Assembly (NCBI RefSeq): GCF_016907975.1
Contig: NZ_JAFBCY010000005.1
Coordinates: forward strand, 124,001-188,000
Length of the DNA: 64,000 bases
Reading direction: 5' to 3'
DNA from: Methylopila capsulata
GTDB taxonomy: Bacteria > Pseudomonadota > Alphaproteobacteria > Rhizobiales > Methylopilaceae
The notes beneath the pieces were generated by a model, which was given only the letters and a program-made list of their open reading frames with translations, made no database searches and had not been told where the DNA came from. Both the position numbers and the translations under genes were made by a program. Numbering within the stretch: the first letter of the stretch is position 1; each line of letters starts with the position of its first letter. This document shows positions 30,128 to 39,365 of the stretch, piece by piece.

Positions 30128-30220
30128 GGCATTGCGATCTCCGGATCGCGACGCCGCCGCCCTCCTTGGGCGTTTCCTCCCTAGACTTGGGCCGCTGGCT
30201 AATGCCGGCGGCCTTTTTTT
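30128..30220 (+). ncRNA. suhB/mmgR (alpha-r8)-like small RNA
   Basis: A free-standing non-coding unit ends in a strong intrinsic terminator: GGCCGCTGGC-TAAT-GCCGGCGGCC followed by seven Ts (30190-30220). Just before it lies the unpaired CTCCTTGGGCGTTTCCTCCC and TAGACTTGG, which I recognise as the conserved core of the alphaproteobacterial suhB/mmgR sRNA family. A possible promoter is TTGCGT (30089) with TCTTAT (30114), placing the 5' end near 30128; that end is an estimate. The gene beside it on the other strand is of the inositol-monophosphatase family, matching the name given to this RNA family. In Sinorhizobium, mmgR limits polyhydroxybutyrate accumulation. Confidence 0.72.
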
Positions 30221-30344
30221 GTTGTCTCTCGTCCAGGTGGCGGGACATTGGCGGCGAATGGCCGCGTTTGCAAGTCCTTTTCCTATCGATCCATCGACGA
30301 AACCCTCGCGACGTCTTGGACTTTCGGATGGGTGCTACGAAAGT

Positions 30345-32119: not shown

Positions 32120-32194
<75 letters not shown>

Positions 32195-32340: not shown

Positions 32341-33948
32341 TCATGCTCCCCTCTCGCGCACGGCGGTCCAATCGAGACCGAAACGCCCGAGGTATTTTCG
32401 CAGCCGATCGGCGTCGTTGGCGCTCGCCTTCTTGGCGCGGCTGGCGGCGAACAGCGCGCGGCCGGCCGCGCTTGCGGTCGGTTCGCGCCGGCAGACCTTC
32501 ACGACCTCGACCAACTGCACGCGGTCGAACAGGTCGATCCCGTCCAGTTCGCTCTCCCCGAACAGGTCCGCCAGCAGATCCCGGTCGTCATCGGCCTTCG
32601 AGGCCCAGGCGCGACGGAGCCGCGCCAGTTCCTCATCGACGGTCGCCGCGTCGATGCGGCCGCGCGGCGCGAGCGTCGCCATGCGCGTGACGGAGGCGCC
32701 GAGGTCGCGGAAGTTCGCAAGCCACCGCGCCGCCGGGGAGGCTGCGAACGCCAGGTAGCGCTGGCGCGCCTCGCGGTTGATCGTGACGTGCAGGCCTTCG
32801 CGCTCGCTGAAACGGGCGAGTTCGAAATCGAGGTTGGGCTCGATGTCCTCGGGCCGATCGGCGAGGCCCGGCAGATCGAAGGTCCAGAGATTGAGGCGCG
32901 CCAGAAGATCCTCCCGGAAGCGCCCGGCGCGCACGTCCAGGGACAGGTCCCGGTTGGTGCCGGCGATCAACTGGAAATCGGAGCCGACCTCCTTGTCCGA
33001 GCCGACCGGCAGAAAGCGCTTCTCCTCGATCGCGCGCAACGCCATCGCCTGTTCGTCAGGTCCGAGTTCGCCGATCTCGTCGAGGAACAGGATGCCTTTG
33101 TCGGCCGCCCTCAGCAGCCCCGCGCGCTCGGACGCGGCGCCCGTGAAGGCGCCTCTCACGTGGCCGAACAGGGCGGAGGCCGCGCCGTCGCCGCGCAGCG
33201 TCGCGCAGTTCACCTCGACGAAGGGTCCGCCGACCTGACGGCGCGCCTTCTTGAGCTCGTAGATCCGTCGCGCCAGCTGCGACTTGCCGGCGCCGGTCGG
33301 GCCGCAGAGCAGAAGAGGCGCCTTCGAGCGGATCGCGACCTGCTCGATCCGGTCGATCATCCGGTTGAACGCCTCGTTGCGGGTCTCGATGCCGGATTTG
33401 AGGAAGTTCGCCGCCTCGTCGCGGTCGCGGCGGAAGCGCGTGGCGATCCGGTCGTAGCGCGAGAGATCGATGTCGATCAGGCCGTAGGAGCTCGGCTGGC
33501 GCTCGCCGCCGTCGCGCCCGCCCCGCGGCGGCGAGAGCTGGAGGATCTTGGCCGGGATGAAATGCGCTTCGATCAGCAGGAACCAGCAGATCTGGGCGAC
33601 ATGCGTCCCGGTGGTGATGTTGACGAGGTAGTCCTCGGCGTCGGGATCGAACGGATAGCCGCGCGCGAAGTCGTGCAGCGCGCCATAGACCTCCTCGAAA
33701 TCCCATGGGTCCGCCAGGTTCATGAGATGCCTGCGGACCTCGGTCGCGGGCGAAACCTGGGCGATGTCGGCGGTCACCCGCTCGGCGAGCGCCATCGAGC
33801 CCTCGCCGTGGATCATGTCGAGCCGGCCGATCGGCAGGTCGCGGTATTGGCAGAGCTCGACCGTCGGCCGCCACCGCCCCCACCGGTTTTGCTTTCCGGC
33901 GTCCAGCGTGGTGCCGAGAAAGCCGATGACGACGCGCTTCTTCTCCAT
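32341..33948 (-). CDS. rtcR: RtcR, sigma-54-dependent activator of RNA repair genes
   Basis: 535 residues from the ATG at 33948. The N-terminal 180 residues are the RtcR-type CARF sensor (VVIGFLGTTLDAGK, then VNITTGTHVAQICWFLL). The central AAA+ domain has Walker A GPTGAGKS (206-213), the sigma-54 contact loop GAFTGA (256-261) and Walker B LFLDE (277-281). The C-terminal part holds the DNA-binding region. Known RtcR proteins bind damaged-RNA ends (2',3'-cyclic phosphate tRNA fragments in Salmonella) and then switch on rsr/Y RNA/rtcBA transcription. Here it is divergent from ro60, with a sigma-54 promoter between them. Confidence 0.95.
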   Translation of the reverse strand: MEKKRVVIGFLGTTLDAGKQNRWGRWRPTVELCQYRDLPIGRLDMIHGEGSMALAERVTADIAQVSPATEVRRHLMNLADPWDFEEVYGALHDFARGYPFDPDAEDYLVNITTGTHVAQICWFLLIEAHFIPAKILQLSPPRGGRDGGERQPSSYGLIDIDLSRYDRIATRFRRDRDEAANFLKSGIETRNEAFNRMIDRIEQVAIRSKAPLLLCGPTGAGKSQLARRIYELKKARRQVGGPFVEVNCATLRGDGAASALFGHVRGAFTGAASERAGLLRAADKGILFLDEIGELGPDEQAMALRAIEEKRFLPVGSDKEVGSDFQLIAGTNRDLSLDVRAGRFREDLLARLNLWTFDLPGLADRPEDIEPNLDFELARFSEREGLHVTINREARQRYLAFAASPAARWLANFRDLGASVTRMATLAPRGRIDAATVDEELARLRRAWASKADDDRDLLADLFGESELDGIDLFDRVQLVEVVKVCRREPTASAAGRALFAASRAKKASANDADRLRKYLGRFGLDWTAVRERGA

Positions 33949-34055
33949 TGGACGATCCGAACAGATAAACAACGATATGTCAGTATCGATATTTTGCCGC
34001 GCTTGTCGCAAGCCGGGATCGGGGGAAAGTCGGACAAAGAAATTTAATCATTTGA

Positions 34056-34097: not shown

Positions 34098-34113
34098 TGG
34101 CACGCGCCTCGCA
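34098..34113 (+). promoter_or_regulatory. Sigma-54 promoter of the ro60 - Y RNA - rtcB unit
   Basis: TGGCACG-CGCC-TCGCA matches the -24/-12 consensus TGGCACR-N4-TTGCW with a single change (T to C in the -12 box). The GG and GC dinucleotides are exactly 10 bases apart. Transcription would start near 34125, leaving a short leader with the GGAGG ribosome site before the ro60 ATG at 34143. Confidence 0.85.
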
Positions 34114-34142: not shown

Positions 34143-35699
34143 ATGGCGAACAAGGCGCTTTTCAAATCCATCGTCGGGAAGCTCGTTCCGGCCGCGACCG
34201 CGACCAACCATGCGGGCGCCCCGGCCTACGCCTATGAGCCGCGCCACGCGCTGGCGCAGCTCGCGGCGACTGGAACGCTCGGCCGGACCTTCTACGCCGA
34301 GCCGGAGGCCCAGCTCGAGGCCGCGCTGAAGCTCGTCTGCGAGATCGAGCCGGAGTTCGTGGCCAAGACCGCAATCTACGCTCGTCAGCGCGGCCACATG
34401 AAGGACCTTCCGGCTCTCCTGCTGGCGGCGCTGTCGGCCATGCACGGGACCGAGTTCGCTCGCGCCTTCCCGCGGATCGTCGACAACGGCCGCATGCTGC
34501 GCAATTTCGTGCAGATCATGCGCTCGGGCGTCACGGGCCGGAAGTCGCTGGGCACGCGGCCGAAGAAGCTGGTGCAGGGCTGGCTCGACGCGGCGTCGGA
34601 CGCCGAGATCCTGCGCGCGTCGGTGGGTCAGGACCCGTCGCTTGGCGACGTGATCAAGATGGTCCATCCGCGTCCGGCCTCGGCCGAGCGGGCGGCGCTG
34701 TTCGGGTGGCTGATCGGACGGCCTTACGACGTCGCGGCGGCTCCGGAGATCGTCCGGGCCTTCGAGGCGTTCAAGGCGGATCCGACCGGCGAGGTTCCGG
34801 ACCTGCCGTTCCAGATGCTGACCTCGCTGCCCCTCACGAAGGAGCAGTGGGCCGGCGTCGGCCGGAAAGCCGGCTGGCACATGCTGCGCATGAACCTCAA
34901 CACCTTCGCGCGCCACGGCGCGTTCGAGGTCGAGGGCTTTGCGGAGCATGTGGCGGAGCGGCTCCGGGACGGCGACGCGATCCGCCGCGCCCGAGTCTTC
35001 CCGTACCAGCTCATGGCGGCCTACGCCGCGACGGGCTCGGGAGTCCCGGCTGCGGTCCGCGAGGCGCTGCAGGATGCGATGGAGATCGCGGTCTCCAACG
35101 TGCCCGCGGTGGCGGGGAACGTCGTGGTCTGCCCGGACGTGTCCGGCTCGATGGGCTCGCCCGCCACCGGCTACCGCCCGGGCGCGACCTCGGTGGTGCG
35201 CTGCGTCGACGTGGCGGCGCTGGTCGCCGCTGCGTTCCTGCGGGCGAACCGTACGGCGCGGGTGATGCCGTTCGAGCAGGATGTGGTCGATGTGGACCTC
35301 AACCCGCGCGACAGCGTCATGACCAACGCGGGCAAGCTCGCGGCGGTCGGCGGCGGCGGCACCAACTGCTCGGCCCCGGTCGAGCGACTGGTGGCGGAGA
35401 AGGCCAGGGTCGATCTCCTCGTGTTCGTCTCGGACAACCAGTCCTGGATGGACGCGCAGGCGGCCCGCTCGGGCACGGGTCTGATGCAGGCCTTCAACAG
35501 GCTGAAGGCGATCAATCCGGGCCTGAAAATGGTCTGCGTCGACATCCAGCCCTACGGCGCGACCCAGGCCGTGGAGCGCGAGGACATCCTCAACGTCGGG
35601 GGCTTCTCCGACGCGGCGTTCGAGATGATCGGCCGCTTTGCGGACGGGACCCTCGGGCCGGCGCACTGGGTGGGCGAGATCGAGAAGATCGAGCTCTGA
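34143..35699 (+). CDS. rsr: Ro60-family (TROVE + vWA) RNA-binding protein, Rsr
   Basis: 518 residues from the ATG at 34143 (an in-frame GTG at 34125 lies before the ribosome site and is rejected). A ring of alpha-helical TROVE/HEAT-like repeats covers about residues 1-325 (for example LVCEIEPEFVAKTAIYARQR). A von Willebrand A domain follows, with an intact metal site DVSGSM (332-337) and GGGGTNCSAP. This is the bacterial Ro60 orthologue, a ring that binds Y RNAs on its outer surface and misfolded RNA ends in its centre; in Deinococcus it tethers to PNPase. The five Y-like RNAs directly downstream are its expected partners. Confidence 0.95.
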   Translation: MANKALFKSIVGKLVPAATATNHAGAPAYAYEPRHALAQLAATGTLGRTFYAEPEAQLEAALKLVCEIEPEFVAKTAIYARQRGHMKDLPALLLAALSAMHGTEFARAFPRIVDNGRMLRNFVQIMRSGVTGRKSLGTRPKKLVQGWLDAASDAEILRASVGQDPSLGDVIKMVHPRPASAERAALFGWLIGRPYDVAAAPEIVRAFEAFKADPTGEVPDLPFQMLTSLPLTKEQWAGVGRKAGWHMLRMNLNTFARHGAFEVEGFAEHVAERLRDGDAIRRARVFPYQLMAAYAATGSGVPAAVREALQDAMEIAVSNVPAVAGNVVVCPDVSGSMGSPATGYRPGATSVVRCVDVAALVAAAFLRANRTARVMPFEQDVVDVDLNPRDSVMTNAGKLAAVGGGGTNCSAPVERLVAEKARVDLLVFVSDNQSWMDAQAARSGTGLMQAFNRLKAINPGLKMVCVDIQPYGATQAVEREDILNVGGFSDAAFEMIGRFADGTLGPAHWVGEIEKIEL

Positions 35700-35760: not shown

Positions 35761-35890
35761 GTCCCGGCGACGCGACGAATGCCGGCCGAGAGTACATCAC
35801 CATCTGGAGCGCAGGCGATTGATACCCGCCCCCGACTCACCGTTATCGGGACGCTCGCCTCTCGCCACACTCGTCGTCGCGTCCCCCGGA
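35761..35890 (+). ncRNA. Y-RNA-like unit 1
   Basis: Outer helix GTCC/GGAC and lower helix GACGCGACGA (35769-35778) with TCGTCGCGTC (35874-35883), 10 perfect pairs. Upper helix CGAGAG (35787-35792) with CTCTCG (35859-35864). Inside: D-stem 3' strand GAGC (35807), a diverged T-arm (35814-35830, loop TTGATAC), an acceptor-like hairpin CCCGA/TCGGG (35831-35850), then D-stem 5' strand GCTC (35853). The order is a tRNA opened in the D-loop with the anticodon arm deleted. The CGAATG just after the lower helix recurs in all units (CGAATA in unit 3) and resembles the CGAA of animal Y RNA Ro sites. Confidence 0.78.
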
Positions 35891-35904
35891 CGGATCCGAA
35901 GACC

Positions 35905-36074
35905 AAGCCGTGACGAATGCTGACGGAACTACATCCCTCCACGGACCAGATGCGGGTTCGAATCCCGCCGGGCCGGCCATCCATCGGCCCGTGCTCAATG
36001 GACAGAGCAGGCGGCGGCGATCTCCGAAAGGCGATCCTCGCCAGACGTTTCGTCGAACCTCGTCGTCACGGCTT
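35905..36074 (+). ncRNA. Y-RNA-like unit 2
   Basis: Lower helix AAGCCGTGACGA (35905-35916) with TCGTCACGGCTT (36063-36074), 12 perfect pairs. Upper helix TGACGGAAC (35921-35929) with GTTTCGTCG (36047-36055), nine pairs including G-U. The core holds a perfect T-arm GCGGG-TTCGAAT-CCCGC (35952-35968), then acceptor 3' strand CGGGCCG, a nine-base loop beginning GCCA, acceptor 5' strand CGGCCCG (35985-35991) and an intact D-arm GCTC-AATGGACA-GAGC (35993-36008). This is a tRNA opened at the anticodon, the topology known for bacterial YrlA. An extra hairpin GGCGA-TCC-TCGCC lies at 36030-36042. Confidence 0.85.
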
Positions 36075-36085
36075 CGTCCTGTCGC

Positions 36086-36240
36086 GGACGCGGCGAATAC
36101 CAGTGGGACTACATCGCAGACGCGGCCGCCCCTTCGGGGGCGGCGGGAGGCTCGAAACCTCCCGTGAGGGTGCGAATCCCTCCGTCGCCAACGGGCGACG
36201 TGGCGGAAAGGCGTCCCACGACCAGATTGTCGCCGCGGCC
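36086..36240 (+). ncRNA. Y-RNA-like unit 3, tRNA-Leu/Ser-like core
   Basis: Lower helix CGCGGCGA (36089-36096) with TCGCCGCG (36230-36237). Upper helix GTGGGAC (36103-36109) with GTCCCAC (36213-36219), where a T-A replaces the C-G of units 4 and 5. The core reads: D-arm 3' half GCAGACGC, an 8-bp arm in the anticodon position capped by a C(TTCG)G tetraloop (36125-36144), a long variable arm GGGAGG/CCTCCC, T-arm GAGGG-TGCGAAT-CCCTC (36166-36182), acceptor CGTCGCC/GGCGACG (36183-36200) and D-arm 5' half TGGCGGAA. This is a class II tRNA opened in the D-loop with its anticodon loop replaced. Confidence 0.85.
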
Positions 36241-36257
36241 CCGACGGGAACGAACAT

Positions 36258-36352
36258 GACGTGACGAATGCTGACGGGACTACACGGCTAACGCGGGTTC
36301 GAATCCCGTCGGACCGAGAGGTCCGTGTCCCGCCGCCTCTCGTCGTCACGGC
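36258..36352 (+). ncRNA. Y-RNA-like unit 4, minimal
   Basis: The smallest unit, about 95 bases. Lower helix CGTGACGA (36260-36267) with TCGTCACG (36343-36350). Upper helix CGGGAC (36275-36280) with GTCCCG (36327-36332). The core is just a T-arm GCGGG-TTCGAAT-CCCGT (36293-36309) and an acceptor-like hairpin CGGACC/GGTCCG (36310-36325) closed by a GAGA (GNRA) tetraloop. No D-stem or anticodon arm is present, so this shows the minimum kept by all units: Ro-type stem, T-arm and capped acceptor hairpin. Confidence 0.82.
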
Positions 36353-36360
36353 CTTGAACT

Positions 36361-36492
36361 GACGCGGCGAATGCCTGCGGGACTACATGGTAGAGCGCCC
36401 GCCTGAGACGGCGGGAGGTCGGCGGTTCGCATCCGCCCCCGGGACAACCGGGTAGCTCAATAACGTCCCGTAAACACACTGGTCGCCGCGAC
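36361..36492 (+). ncRNA. Y-RNA-like unit 5, near-complete permuted tRNA core
   Basis: Lower helix CGCGGCGA (36363-36370) with TCGCCGCG (36483-36490). Upper helix CGGGAC (36378-36383) with GTCCCG (36465-36470). Between them: D-arm 3' half GGTAGAGC (36389-36396), an anticodon-like arm CCCGCC-TGAGAC-GGCGGG (36398-36415), variable AGGTC, T-arm GGCGG-TTCGCAT-CCGCC (36421-36437), acceptor CCCGG/CCGGG (36438-36452), then TA and GCTCAA, whose GCTC pairs with the distant GAGC. Joined end to end it is nearly a normal tRNA opened in the D-loop. The anticodon-type loop has 6 bases, so it is not a decoding tRNA. Confidence 0.84.
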
Positions 36493-36534: not shown

Positions 36535-37938
36535 GTGATCACTGGAAAGACGCTCATCGACTGGGGGTTTGGGCCCGGTCCCTGGTTCACGGACGCCATC
36601 GCGGCGGCGCAGGCCGCGGCCGCGCGCGGCGAGGACGCGCGCGCGGCCGTCGCCGCCGTGGCGCCGAAGCCGGTCGCCAGGCGTGGCCTGCGCGGGCCGG
36701 GCGCCCTTCCGTATCACCTCAACATACGCGCCGAGAACGAGGGCGACGCCGAGAACATCGCGAGCGTGCAGGCTCATATGGACGAGCTGATGCGGGTTCC
36801 GACCGTCCGGGCGGGCGCGGTGATGCCGGACGCCTGCCCGGCCGGCCGTGCGCCCGGCACCATCCCGGTCGGCGGCGTGATCGCGACCGAGAACGCGATC
36901 CATCCCGGTTTCCATTCCGCCGACATCTGCTGCTCGATGGCGCTGACCTCGTTCGGCGACGTCGACCCGACCGCGATCCTCGACGCCGGCATGGCATGGT
37001 CGCATTTCGGCGGCGGCGGCCGGCCGCGCGGCGCGCAGATCCGCCCGCCGGCCGAAATCCTCGCGGCGATGGACGCGAACCCGTTCCTCAGCAAGCTGAC
37101 CTCGGCGGCGATCGAGCACTTCGCGACGCAGGGCGACGGCAACCACTTCTTCTATGTGGGCCGCCGGACCTCGACGGGCGACGTGACGCTCGTCACCCAC
37201 CACGGCTCCCGCAAGCCCGGCGCGCTGCTCTACAAGGCCGGCATGGCGCTGGCCGAGACGACGCGGCGGGCCGCGTCTCCCGAGACGCCGAGCCACAACG
37301 CCTGGATCGACGCCGACACGGCCGAGGGCGAAGCCTATTGGGAGGCGCTTCAGATCATCCGCCTGTGGACCAAGGCGAACCACTACGCCATCCACGACCT
37401 GGTCGCCGACGCGCTGGGATTGAAGCCGGTCGACCGCTTCTGGAACGAGCACAACTTCGTCTTCCGCAAGACCGACGGCCTGTTCTACCACGCCAAGGGC
37501 GCGACGCCGGCCTATGACGGCTTCAGCGCCGACGACACCGGCCTGACGCTCGTGCCCCTCAACATGGGCGAGCCGATCCTGATCACGCGTGGGCTGGACG
37601 CGCCGAACGGCCTCGGCTTCTCCCCGCACGGGGCCGGCCGCAATTTCAGCCGGACCGCCTTCCTGAGGGCGCAGACCGAAACGCCGGAGGAGCAGCTCGC
37701 GGCCATCCGCACGACCATCGACGCGCGGTTCTTCAGCGGCGTGCCGGACGCGTCGGAACTGCCCGCCGCCTACAAGAACGCCGACACGGTGCGCGCCCAG
37801 CTCGCCGAGTTCGGTCTGTGCGAGGTCGTGGACACCGTCGAGCCGGTCGGCTGCATCATGGCCGGGGACTGGCAGGTCAACGCGCCGTGGCGGAAGAAGA
37901 AGGTCGCGAAGGACGCGCAGGCGGATGCCATCGGCTGA
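36535..37938 (+). CDS. rtcB: RNA-splicing ligase RtcB
   Basis: 467 residues from a GTG at 36535, with AAGGAG eight bases upstream. Metal residues in HSADICCSM (Asp about 130, Cys about 133), HFATQGDGNHFFYVG, HHGSRKPG, and the guanylylated His in HGAGR (about 365-369). RtcB seals a 2',3'-cyclic phosphate or 3' phosphate to a 5' OH using GTP and manganese. It follows the Y-RNA array by 42 bases and is presumably on the same sigma-54 transcript. No rtcA (RNA 3'-phosphate cyclase) follows; the next gene is on the opposite strand. The basic C-terminal tail (WRKKKVAKDAQ) is a small extension. Confidence 0.95.
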   Translation: MITGKTLIDWGFGPGPWFTDAIAAAQAAAARGEDARAAVAAVAPKPVARRGLRGPGALPYHLNIRAENEGDAENIASVQAHMDELMRVPTVRAGAVMPDACPAGRAPGTIPVGGVIATENAIHPGFHSADICCSMALTSFGDVDPTAILDAGMAWSHFGGGGRPRGAQIRPPAEILAAMDANPFLSKLTSAAIEHFATQGDGNHFFYVGRRTSTGDVTLVTHHGSRKPGALLYKAGMALAETTRRAASPETPSHNAWIDADTAEGEAYWEALQIIRLWTKANHYAIHDLVADALGLKPVDRFWNEHNFVFRKTDGLFYHAKGATPAYDGFSADDTGLTLVPLNMGEPILITRGLDAPNGLGFSPHGAGRNFSRTAFLRAQTETPEEQLAAIRTTIDARFFSGVPDASELPAAYKNADTVRAQLAEFGLCEVVDTVEPVGCIMAGDWQVNAPWRKKKVAKDAQADAIG

Positions 37939-38033: not shown

Positions 38034-39365
38034 TCAGGAGGCGGGCGCCGGGAACCAGCGGTTCTCCGGCCGGGGCAGGCCGAGGTGATCGCGCAGCGTC
38101 CGTCCCTCGTAGGCGGCGCGGAAGATCCCGCGGCGGCGAAGTTCCGGGACCACGCGGTCGACGACGTCGTCGAGCCCCTGCGGGAGAAAGGGAAACATGA
38201 CGTTGAAGCCGTCGCAGCCCTCGGTCTCCAGCCATTCCTGCATGCCGTCGGCGATGGTCTGGGGCGTGCCGACGAAGGCGAGGCCGGAGTAGCCGCCCAC
38301 GCGCTGGGCGATCTGGCGGATCGAGAGGTTCTCGCGCCGTGCGAACGCGACGATCCGCGCCTGCGCGCTGCGGCTGGCGTTGGTCTCGGGGAGTTCCGGC
38401 AGCGGGCCGTCCGGATCGAAGCCGGAGACGTCGTGGCCGAGCATGGTCGAGAGCGACCCGAAAGCGCTGTCGACGTGCACCAGGGCGTCGAGCCGGGCGC
38501 GCGTCTCGCGCGCCTCCTCCACGCTGTCGCCGACCACGATGAAGGCGCCCGGCAGGATCTTGAGATGATCGGGGTCCCGCCCGACCGCCGCCATCCGGCC
38601 TTTGACGTCCTTGTAGAAGGCCTGCGCCTCGGAGAGCCGGCGCGGAGCGGCGAACACCACCTCCGCCGTCTCGGCGGCGAGCTGTCGGCCGGGCTCCGAG
38701 GCGCCGGCCTGCACGATCACCGGCCAGCCCTGCGGCGGGCGGGCGATGTTGAGCGGCCCCTGCACGGACAGGAACTCGCCCTTGTGGCGCAGCGCGCGCA
38801 TCCGGGACGGGTCGACGTAGACGCCGGCCTCCACGTCGCGGACGAAGGCGTCATCGGCGAAGGAGTCCCAGAGCCCGGTGACCACGTCCACAAACTCCCG
38901 CGCCCGCCTGTAGCGGTCGCCATGCTCCACGTGCTCATCGAGCCCGAAGTTGAGCGCCGCCTCGGGATTGGAGGTGGTGACGACGTTCCAGCCGGCGCGG
39001 CCCTCCGACAGGTGATCGAGCGAGGCGAAGCGGCGGGCGACGTGGTAGGGCGCGTCGAAGGTCGTCGAGGCCGTCGCGACGAGGCCGATCCGCTCCGTCA
39101 CGGCGGCGAGCGCCGACAGCAGCGTGAAGGGCTCGAACGAGGTCACCGTGTGGCTGCGCTTCAGCGCGTCCGCGGGCATGTTCAGAACGGCGAGGTGATC
39201 CGCCATGAAAAAGGCGTCGAAGGTCGCCTCCTCGAGCCGCTGCGCCATACGCTTCAGATGCCGAAAGTTGAAGTTCGCGTCGGGCCAGGCTCCGGGATAG
39301 CGCCAGGCGCCGGTGTGCAGGCTCACCGGGCGCATGAAGGCGCCGAGCTTCAGTTGACGCGCCAT
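38034..39365 (-). CDS. LLM-class flavin-dependent monooxygenase (NtaA/SnaA/DszA type)
   Basis: 443 residues. Luciferase-like (beta/alpha)8 fold with the subgroup features RPVSLHTGAWRYPGAWPDAN, FDAFFMADHLAV, WNVVTTSNPEAALNFG and QAGASEPGRQLAAETAEVVF, as in nitrilotriacetate monooxygenase A and dibenzothiophene-sulfone monooxygenase. These two-component enzymes use FMNH2 from a separate reductase to oxidise C-N or C-S compounds. No reductase is adjacent. It is convergent with rtcB; the substrate cannot be told. Confidence 0.87.
   Translation of the reverse strand: MARQLKLGAFMRPVSLHTGAWRYPGAWPDANFNFRHLKRMAQRLEEATFDAFFMADHLAVLNMPADALKRSHTVTSFEPFTLLSALAAVTERIGLVATASTTFDAPYHVARRFASLDHLSEGRAGWNVVTTSNPEAALNFGLDEHVEHGDRYRRAREFVDVVTGLWDSFADDAFVRDVEAGVYVDPSRMRALRHKGEFLSVQGPLNIARPPQGWPVIVQAGASEPGRQLAAETAEVVFAAPRRLSEAQAFYKDVKGRMAAVGRDPDHLKILPGAFIVVGDSVEEARETRARLDALVHVDSAFGSLSTMLGHDVSGFDPDGPLPELPETNASRSAQARIVAFARRENLSIRQIAQRVGGYSGLAFVGTPQTIADGMQEWLETEGCDGFNVMFPFLPQGLDDVVDRVVPELRRRGIFRAAYEGRTLRDHLGLPRPENRWFPAPAS

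Follow-up and report, generated by a model that had tools for sequence, protein, structure and literature searches.

Predicted permuted tRNA mimics of different kinds in a five-unit Y RNA array of Methylopila capsulata

Between ro60 and rtcB in the 64,000-nt stretch of Methylopila capsulata DNA analysed here (the window), positions 35770-36491 probably hold five predicted Y RNA genes with predicted permuted tRNA-mimic modules, which would act as Ro60-bound scaffolds and present differently oriented tRNA shapes to tRNA-binding enzymes during tRNA breakage. As read from the nucleotide sequence, the units share their lower and upper helices, units 2, 3 and 5 have a permuted tRNA order, and the helices covary across loci. 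YrlA, with its break in the anticodon stem, is already known; unusual here are units opened at a second point, the D loop. Two breaks of a single fold occur naturally side by side in this array and may serve one RNP, which is of interest for what Y RNAs do when bacteria repair RNA.

The rtcR/ro60/rtcB locus

The locus lies on one contig (C5) of a 4.1-Mb genome and is ordered as a divergent rtcR on the minus strand, ro60, the five RNA units and rtcB. The rtcR product (32344-34011, minus strand), a sigma-54 activator with an RtcR sensor domain (PF06956), scored 805.7 bits, above the NCBIfam cut-off of 650 (NF038308). The ro60 or rsr-like gene (34143-35699, plus strand, 518 aa) was recognised by PF25045, a weak TROVE match and the alignment of residues 20-502 with the Rsr structure of D. 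radiodurans (2nvo, E 2e-19), and at 77 bits it stays under the NCBIfam Rsr cut-off of 900. Downstream of the array, the rtcB-like ligase gene (36535-37938, plus strand, 467 aa) matched PF01139 with 117 bits against a cut-off of 27. The His of its H-x-KGAT motif aligned with 4dwr, as did the Cys of DIxC, the latter in a stretch which is not significant alone; we take both to be catalytic residues. The matches of these three proteins support the original prediction, which had placed a multi-Y-RNA system in an RtcR/Ro60/RtcB operon.

A candidate sigma-54 (-24/-12) promoter of ro60, TGGCACG-N4-TCGCA, was found at 34098-34113 on the plus strand; this site, TGGCACGCGCCTCGCA, starts 45 nt 5' of ro60 and agrees in 11 of 12 letters with the sigma-54 consensus. 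A motif score of at least 10 out of 12 was reached upstream of ro60 in 46 of 80 loci, compared with 2 of 80 within the gene, while in 19 of the 80 loci there was no upstream candidate with the required GG/GC spacing. Neither intrinsic terminators on the plus strand nor sigma-70 promoters were found between 33950 and 38100. The features of an RtcR-controlled repair operon found here were rtcR, the promoter match and rtcB; rtcA, which such operons usually include, was absent beside rtcB, and a search of the genome with PF01137 at E 0.001 gave no match to it. The locus is patchy in its distribution, since ro60 is present in only 1 of 13 genomes of the genus.

The array of predicted Y RNA units

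All five tandem units of the original prediction are present, and the helix letters it quoted match in each of them. A unit is laid out as a lower helix ending in CGA, AU, a second helix and then UAC, and the spacers between the units of the window are 10-25 nt long. All five share two traits with bacterial Y RNAs in the broad sense: a long terminal stem with a conserved CGA/UCG end followed by a second helix after a bulge, and a place beside a Ro60 ortholog. Chen 2014 reportedly listed probable Y RNAs close to Ro60 in more than 250 species, with at least one tRNA-like RNA in each.

A unit detector made of the two helices and the TAC motif was applied to 81 loci (80 relatives and the window), where it found 213 units downstream of ro60; the opposite strand of these 167 kb yielded 2. 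Together with a covariance model (R1, described below), 302 units were collected in 77 of the 81 loci (273 by R1 and 29 by the detector), leaving four loci without any unit; these counts are lower bounds, as a YrlA unit at L024 6923-7037 was found by Rfam and missed by both lists. Both strands were searched with R1, and all 300 matches listed for the 81 loci lay on the ro60 strand.

The original prediction had regarded the array as unusually large and perhaps undescribed. This did not hold: among the 75 arrays with at least 1.5 kb of sequence covered, window included, 60 had at least three units and 25 had five to seven (lower bounds), the largest being the seven-unit array of L008. Five units are therefore ordinary, and array size was rejected as a mark of novelty. 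Many loci contain very short Y units of 65-75 nt without a module, for example L031 6626, L041 6622 and L062 6594, where they stand first in the array; such units may only occupy Ro60.

Covariation of the shared stem

The original prediction had also argued, from changes on both strands of the helices, that structure is selected. Within the window this signal was modest. When lower-helix strands are exchanged between units, 7-9 of the 9 positions remain paired, and the own 5' strands of unit 4 (32.4) scored no better than those of three other units (32.4, 32.6 and 34.6); the covariation test confined to the window is too weak by itself. The argument stood when it was extended across loci: of the 171 units in loci with three or more, 145 scored higher with their own 5' strands than with any foreign strand from their array (mean 34.2 versus 23.9). 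Inside the modules, the strands of the T stem paired at 4.28 of 5 positions, compared with 3.21 when they were swapped between units (149 anchors).

Modules as predicted circularly permuted tRNA mimics

Each inner module was doubled and submitted to ARAGORN in 81 trims; 20 of the 302 units had no usable UAC/TAC or upper helix, which left 282 modules. In permuted order 104 of the 282 were called as tRNAs and 178 were not, whereas the native order gave 0 of 282 with the same trims and dinucleotide shuffles gave 1 of 2820. Among the modules of at least 60 nt (n=173), 103 were called when permuted and 70 were not. In a first run, 75 of 217 modules had been called when permuted, but none of them in untrimmed native order and none of 651 shuffles. 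The possibility that the units are plain tRNA genes was rejected on the native-order result, and ARAGORN run on the window reported only a tRNA-Val at 32120. In one relative (L003), an Rfam tRNA match of 30.1 bits, just above the cut-off, straddles two units.

Within the window, the 81 trims gave 71 calls for unit 3, 29 for unit 5 and a single one for unit 2 (which had none in the first run), indicating that these three are recognised as tRNA only after permutation; units 1 and 4 gave none. The multi-Y reading stands; what it missed is that the units include permuted tRNA mimics of different kinds, two of them opened at the D loop.

Unit 1 (35770-35882, plus strand, as are all units) joins the shared stem with a GAGCG/CGCTC helix to two inner hairpins; its degenerate module is only loosely tRNA-like. 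It scored 31.8 bits with R1 and is nearest to units of L013, L007, L004 and L003. Unit 2 (35908-36071) follows the YrlA order of T arm, acceptor and D arm with the break in the anticodon stem, and its 7-bp acceptor is followed by G73-CCA within a closed loop. Unit 3 (36088-36238) has a module that resembles tRNA(Leu/Ser), is opened at the D loop and carries two hairpins ahead of the T arm; Leu-like relatives with extra hairpins at this place occur at L008 7432, L011 7062 and L012 4205, and RNAfold leaves the D stem of unit 3 unpaired. The small module of unit 4 (36259-36351) consists of a T arm and an acceptor-like hairpin only, without a D arm, and its free MFE fold in RNAfold (-43.5) differs from the Y fold (-42.0).

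Unit 5 (36362-36491) is a complete D-loop-opened cloverleaf on a Y stem, and RNAfold, run without constraints, gives this shape as the MFE structure: all four arms form, and the cloverleaf is attached to the Y stem through its D stem. The upper Y helix, located by the detector and the fold, pairs 36377-36383 with 36465-36471. It encloses GG, TA and the D-stem 3' strand GAGC (36389-36396), the GG corresponding to tRNA positions 18-19; a hairpin at the place of the anticodon arm (36398-36415) with 6 bp and a 6-nt loop, not a 7-nt anticodon loop; a T arm (36421-36437) of 5 bp with the loop TTCGCAT, in which a C takes the place normally held by A58; an acceptor-like hairpin (36438-36452) closed by a loop and without CCA; and the D-stem 5' strand GCTC (36455-36458), which pairs across the module with 36393-36396. 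When permuted, unit 5 was identical to tRNA-Phe of this genome in 53 of 73 aligned columns, a comparison that covered 36 tRNA calls, taken from 30 of the genome's 45 tRNA-match loci. Its 111 bits with R1 have to be read with the fact that it is one of the 11 training rows. In Rfam, unit 5 had a weak tRNA match (20.8 bits) and unit 3 a weak tRNA-Sec match (19.3 bits), both below cut-off.

The Rfam YrlA model (RF02553, gathering threshold 69 bits) scored units 4, 2, 5 and 3 with 40.2, 40.0, 33.6 and 15.5 bits, so that none passes, and no match to unit 1 was listed at E up to 10. The module order of YrlA (T arm, acceptor helix, closed D arm) fits unit 2, while in units 3 and 5 the D arm is opened and in unit 4 it is missing. 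In 12 related loci the same model produced 10 matches at its cut-off, at most one per locus, none of them D-loop-opened and none in L002 or L019. An Rfam search at the usual cut-off therefore detects at most one Y RNA per array in these 12 loci and misses the rest.

The units were also compared with their own array and with other loci. A better match than in the own array was found in 68 of 76 loci for unit 2, 52 for unit 4, 18 for unit 1, 17 for unit 5 and 1 for unit 3, the best match of unit 3 being 0.38 both within and outside its array. The module kinds look old because units 1, 2, 4 and 5 each match another locus clearly better than their own array, and a recent tandem duplication is disfavoured for these four of the five units.

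The D-loop-opened class

Units 3 and 5 run in the order D-stem 3' strand, T arm, acceptor and D-stem 5' strand, the break being the D loop. The covariance model R1 was built from 11 D-loop-opened members, and at a class threshold of at least 70 bits it gave 29 matches in 26 of the 81 loci, 18 of them outside the training set. The class containing unit 5 occurs in Alphaproteobacteria, Burkholderiales (Variovorax, Acidovorax) and Acidobacteria (two contigs), with the acidobacterial class matches located upstream of ro60 in L038 and L069. These two loci have a second set of Y-unit matches upstream of ro60 (L038 3038-4910 and L069 4264-4826).

In a structure-free MAFFT alignment of 10 members (A1), RNAalifold paired the D-stem strands in 10 of 10 and found two-sided changes in 14 of 29 pairs. 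MAFFT on all 29 members (A3) misaligned the D stem, and for this reason the pair counts of an alignment fitted to R1 (A4) are given beside those of the unconstrained A1. In the model-fitted A4, two-sided changes were present in 31 of 38 pairs and 94.4% of the cells paired, versus 37-54% in slid controls, and 0 of 500 shuffles reached the observed value. All 29 members had a paired D stem, and in three of them a C-G or G-C pair stood in place of A-U. Ahead of the D stem, 28 of the 29 retained GG, and every member retained the C of TNC in the T loop; in tRNA, the GG of the D loop and the TNC bases of the T loop form the contact between the two loops. At the place of the anticodon arm, both sides of the hairpin vary in all 7 pairs, and a 7-nt loop was found in none of the 29 members (4 nt in 23, 3 nt in three, 5 nt in two and 6 nt in the window). 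None of the 22 D-loop-opened modules parsed had CCA at the acceptor place. With a closed loop at its acceptor end and a plain hairpin where the anticodon arm would be, the class of unit 5 likely mimics the tRNA core, not decoding or charging.

Searching 297 genomes of the order with R1 at E 1e-4 gave matches in 67, many weak and some of them real tRNAs; the model also matches two real tRNAs of this genome at about 31-32 bits, and weak genome matches were therefore left uncounted. This search made no reference to ro60, and the 12 examined loci with at least 79 bits all lay within 1.5 kb of ro60, although they are not wholly independent of the ro60-based set, as one is this genome and two may equal L028 and L022. 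At 43 bits or more, ro60 was found in the covered flank of 25 of 26 examined loci (the exception being L129), and in four examined loci below 41 bits it was not in the covered flank. Among 398 genomes of the phylum, 6 had an R1 match at E 1e-12.

The anticodon-opened class

In the YrlA order the Y stem exits via the anticodon stem. Sorted by the order of their strands (T arm, D-stem 5', D-stem 3'), 66 of the 213 detector units had this order, and in a further 13 the T arm preceded the D stem but the pattern missed the final strand; one or more of the 13 (L005) proved on later reading to be D-loop-opened. Of 86 anticodon-opened modules, 49 have a 2-bp stem with a 7-nt loop directly after UAC. 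Bases 27-28, which lie across the Y stem, are complementary to 42-43 at 1.76 of 2 positions, compared with 1.22 when swapped (maximum 1.45 in 500).

The anticodon-type loops of relatives (L014-L028, L043, L045, L061 and others) had T33 in 40 of 49 and a purine at 37 in 39 of 49, and 28 different triplets were present at 34-36 among the 49 loops. The triplet differs even between close relatives, three Pleomorphomonas having CAT, CGT and TGT, respectively. Unit 2 of the window is without T33. Furthermore, 20 of the 63 anticodon-opened modules with at least 6 acceptor pairs had N-CCA, with varied N, exactly at tRNA positions 73-76 inside the closed acceptor loop; examples are window 35908-36071, L008 6604, L012 3609, L018 6591 and L028 6599. 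Some relatives' mimics thus appear to keep a full anticodon loop with a hypervariable anticodon as well as an internal CCA.

Discussion

The rsr-yrlBA-rtcBA operon of Salmonella has a divergent rtcR, a sigma-54 promoter, rsr, Y RNAs and rtcB in the same arrangement (PMC7790460 and PMC9879122), but it has two Y units versus five here, and rtcA was not found here. YrlA of Salmonella and others shares with the window units the Ro60-type stem with AUGC..UAC, the T arm, the closed acceptor helix and the permuted tRNA order, and in Salmonella it likewise adjoins rsr and rtcB. Its crystal structure (6CU1) is described as a circular permutation of tRNA in the ARTEMIS paper (PMC11472068). Units 3 and 5 differ from it by their opening in the D loop, and unit 5 also by a D stem that forms across the entire module and by a hairpin where the anticodon arm would be. 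In Deinococcus, the Y RNA ties Rsr to PNPase (PMC7790460), and the likeness to this complex (RYPER) is that Ro60 here aligns with Rsr 2nvo and that a Y RNA there links a Ro60 ortholog to an enzyme; in contrast, the operon context here is RtcR/RtcB, and tethering of PNPase is described for other bacteria only. The D-loop-opened form was found nowhere in the portions covered of the literature on permuted tRNA or tRNA mimics together with Ro60, a scope which lay outside Chen 2014, Sim and Wolin 2018, Wang 2018 and Sim 2020, where several Y RNAs per locus or other module shapes may be mentioned. A literature search for 'permuted tRNA' together with 'Y RNA' returned no paper, the main YrlA papers again being outside its scope.

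We propose the following course of events. Broken tRNA would activate RtcR, by analogy with Salmonella, in which tRNA fragments ending in a cyclic phosphate turn RtcR on (PMC7790460), and activated RtcR would fire the candidate sigma-54 promoter before ro60. The operon RNA would then be processed into single Y RNAs, the lower stem of each would bind Ro60, and the module could dock an enzyme that recognises the tRNA core, e.g. PNPase, RtcB or one that modifies tRNAs. The Y stem of unit 2 exits via the anticodon stem, so that the Ro60 RNP would present the tRNA core from the anticodon side; that of units 3 and 5 exits via the D loop, near the elbow, and the core would be presented from the D-loop side; unit 4 would be presented as a T-arm stub. 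Given these different exits, the tRNA shape would be hung in two orientations with different faces exposed. We lean, by a little, towards the wider statement that the RNA repair operons of bacteria specify whole panels of tRNA mimics, some suspended from Ro60 by the anticodon stem and others by the D loop, the latter kind falling below the Rfam cut-off with the rest of its cloverleaf intact, and that one ring protein shows several orientations to different repair, decay or attack enzymes. Should one Ro60 indeed display mimics attached at different points, the system would become testable, since every kind of module would predict a partner of its own.

The main rival is that the units are decoys, which soak up or block tRNA-cutting nucleases, the array offering several bait shapes. 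A role of YrlA as competitive inhibitor was given as a possibility by Hughes et al., and the tRNA-like loop with a fast-changing anticodon (49 of the 86 anticodon-opened modules, mostly with T33 and with 28 triplets) would fit bait, for that class only. The D-loop-opened hairpins never have a 7-nt loop at the anticodon place (0 of 29), unit 2 of the window is without T33, and YrlA fragments were not seen in Salmonella when tRNAs were cut. On balance decoys seem unlikely, with roughly the standing of an outside candidate.

Redundancy of dosage, in which interchangeable copies merely raise the amount of Y RNA, would agree with the tandem layout, the spacers of 10-25 nt and the shared stem. The modules differ in kind, however, and the same kinds recur in distant loci (for unit 3, a better match lies elsewhere in only 1 of 76), and we consider this reading improbable.

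Permuted tRNA genes, in which the 3' part of the tRNA stands before the 5' part, are known from red algae and archaea, and in some algae and archaea they are processed to working tRNAs. The permuted modules here likewise have the 3' part before the 5' part, and one could imagine that RNase P/Z and RtcB make working tRNAs from them, as rtcB adjoins the array, unit 2 has its 7-bp acceptor with G73-CCA, and CCA stands at 74-76 in 20 of the 63 anticodon-opened modules with at least 6 acceptor pairs. Unlike such genes, the modules run at their ends into the conserved Y stem, and the class of unit 5 is without CCA (0 of 22) or an anticodon loop (no 7-nt loop in 29 of 29); moreover, in the anticodon-opened class close relatives have different triplets at 34-36, a change that a tRNA used in decoding would scarcely tolerate. 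Production of working tRNAs is therefore very improbable. That the tRNA-like stretches are debris of tRNA genes or chance resemblance, as remnants with weak tRNA and tRNA-Sec matches in units 5 and 3 could suggest, is barely credible beside two-sided changes in 31 of 38 pairs of 29 sequences and a single tRNA call in 2820 shuffles. The reading that remains preferred is that of Ro60-bound scaffolds which present tRNA shapes.

Additional observations

The RtcB of the window is 56-62% identical to the ro60-adjacent RtcB of 15 loci and about 25-31% identical to the others found; by sequence identity, two RtcB lineages occur in one operon type. The Y-unit layout of L004, titled Mycobacterium sp. 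KBS0706, is closely like that of Inquilinus limosus (L003), and the record may be mislabelled. Elsewhere in the window, a suhB/mmgR sRNA (RF00519, 69.1 bits) was matched at 30152-30228, and a luciferase-like monooxygenase gene (PF00296) at 38034-39365 is convergent with rtcB.
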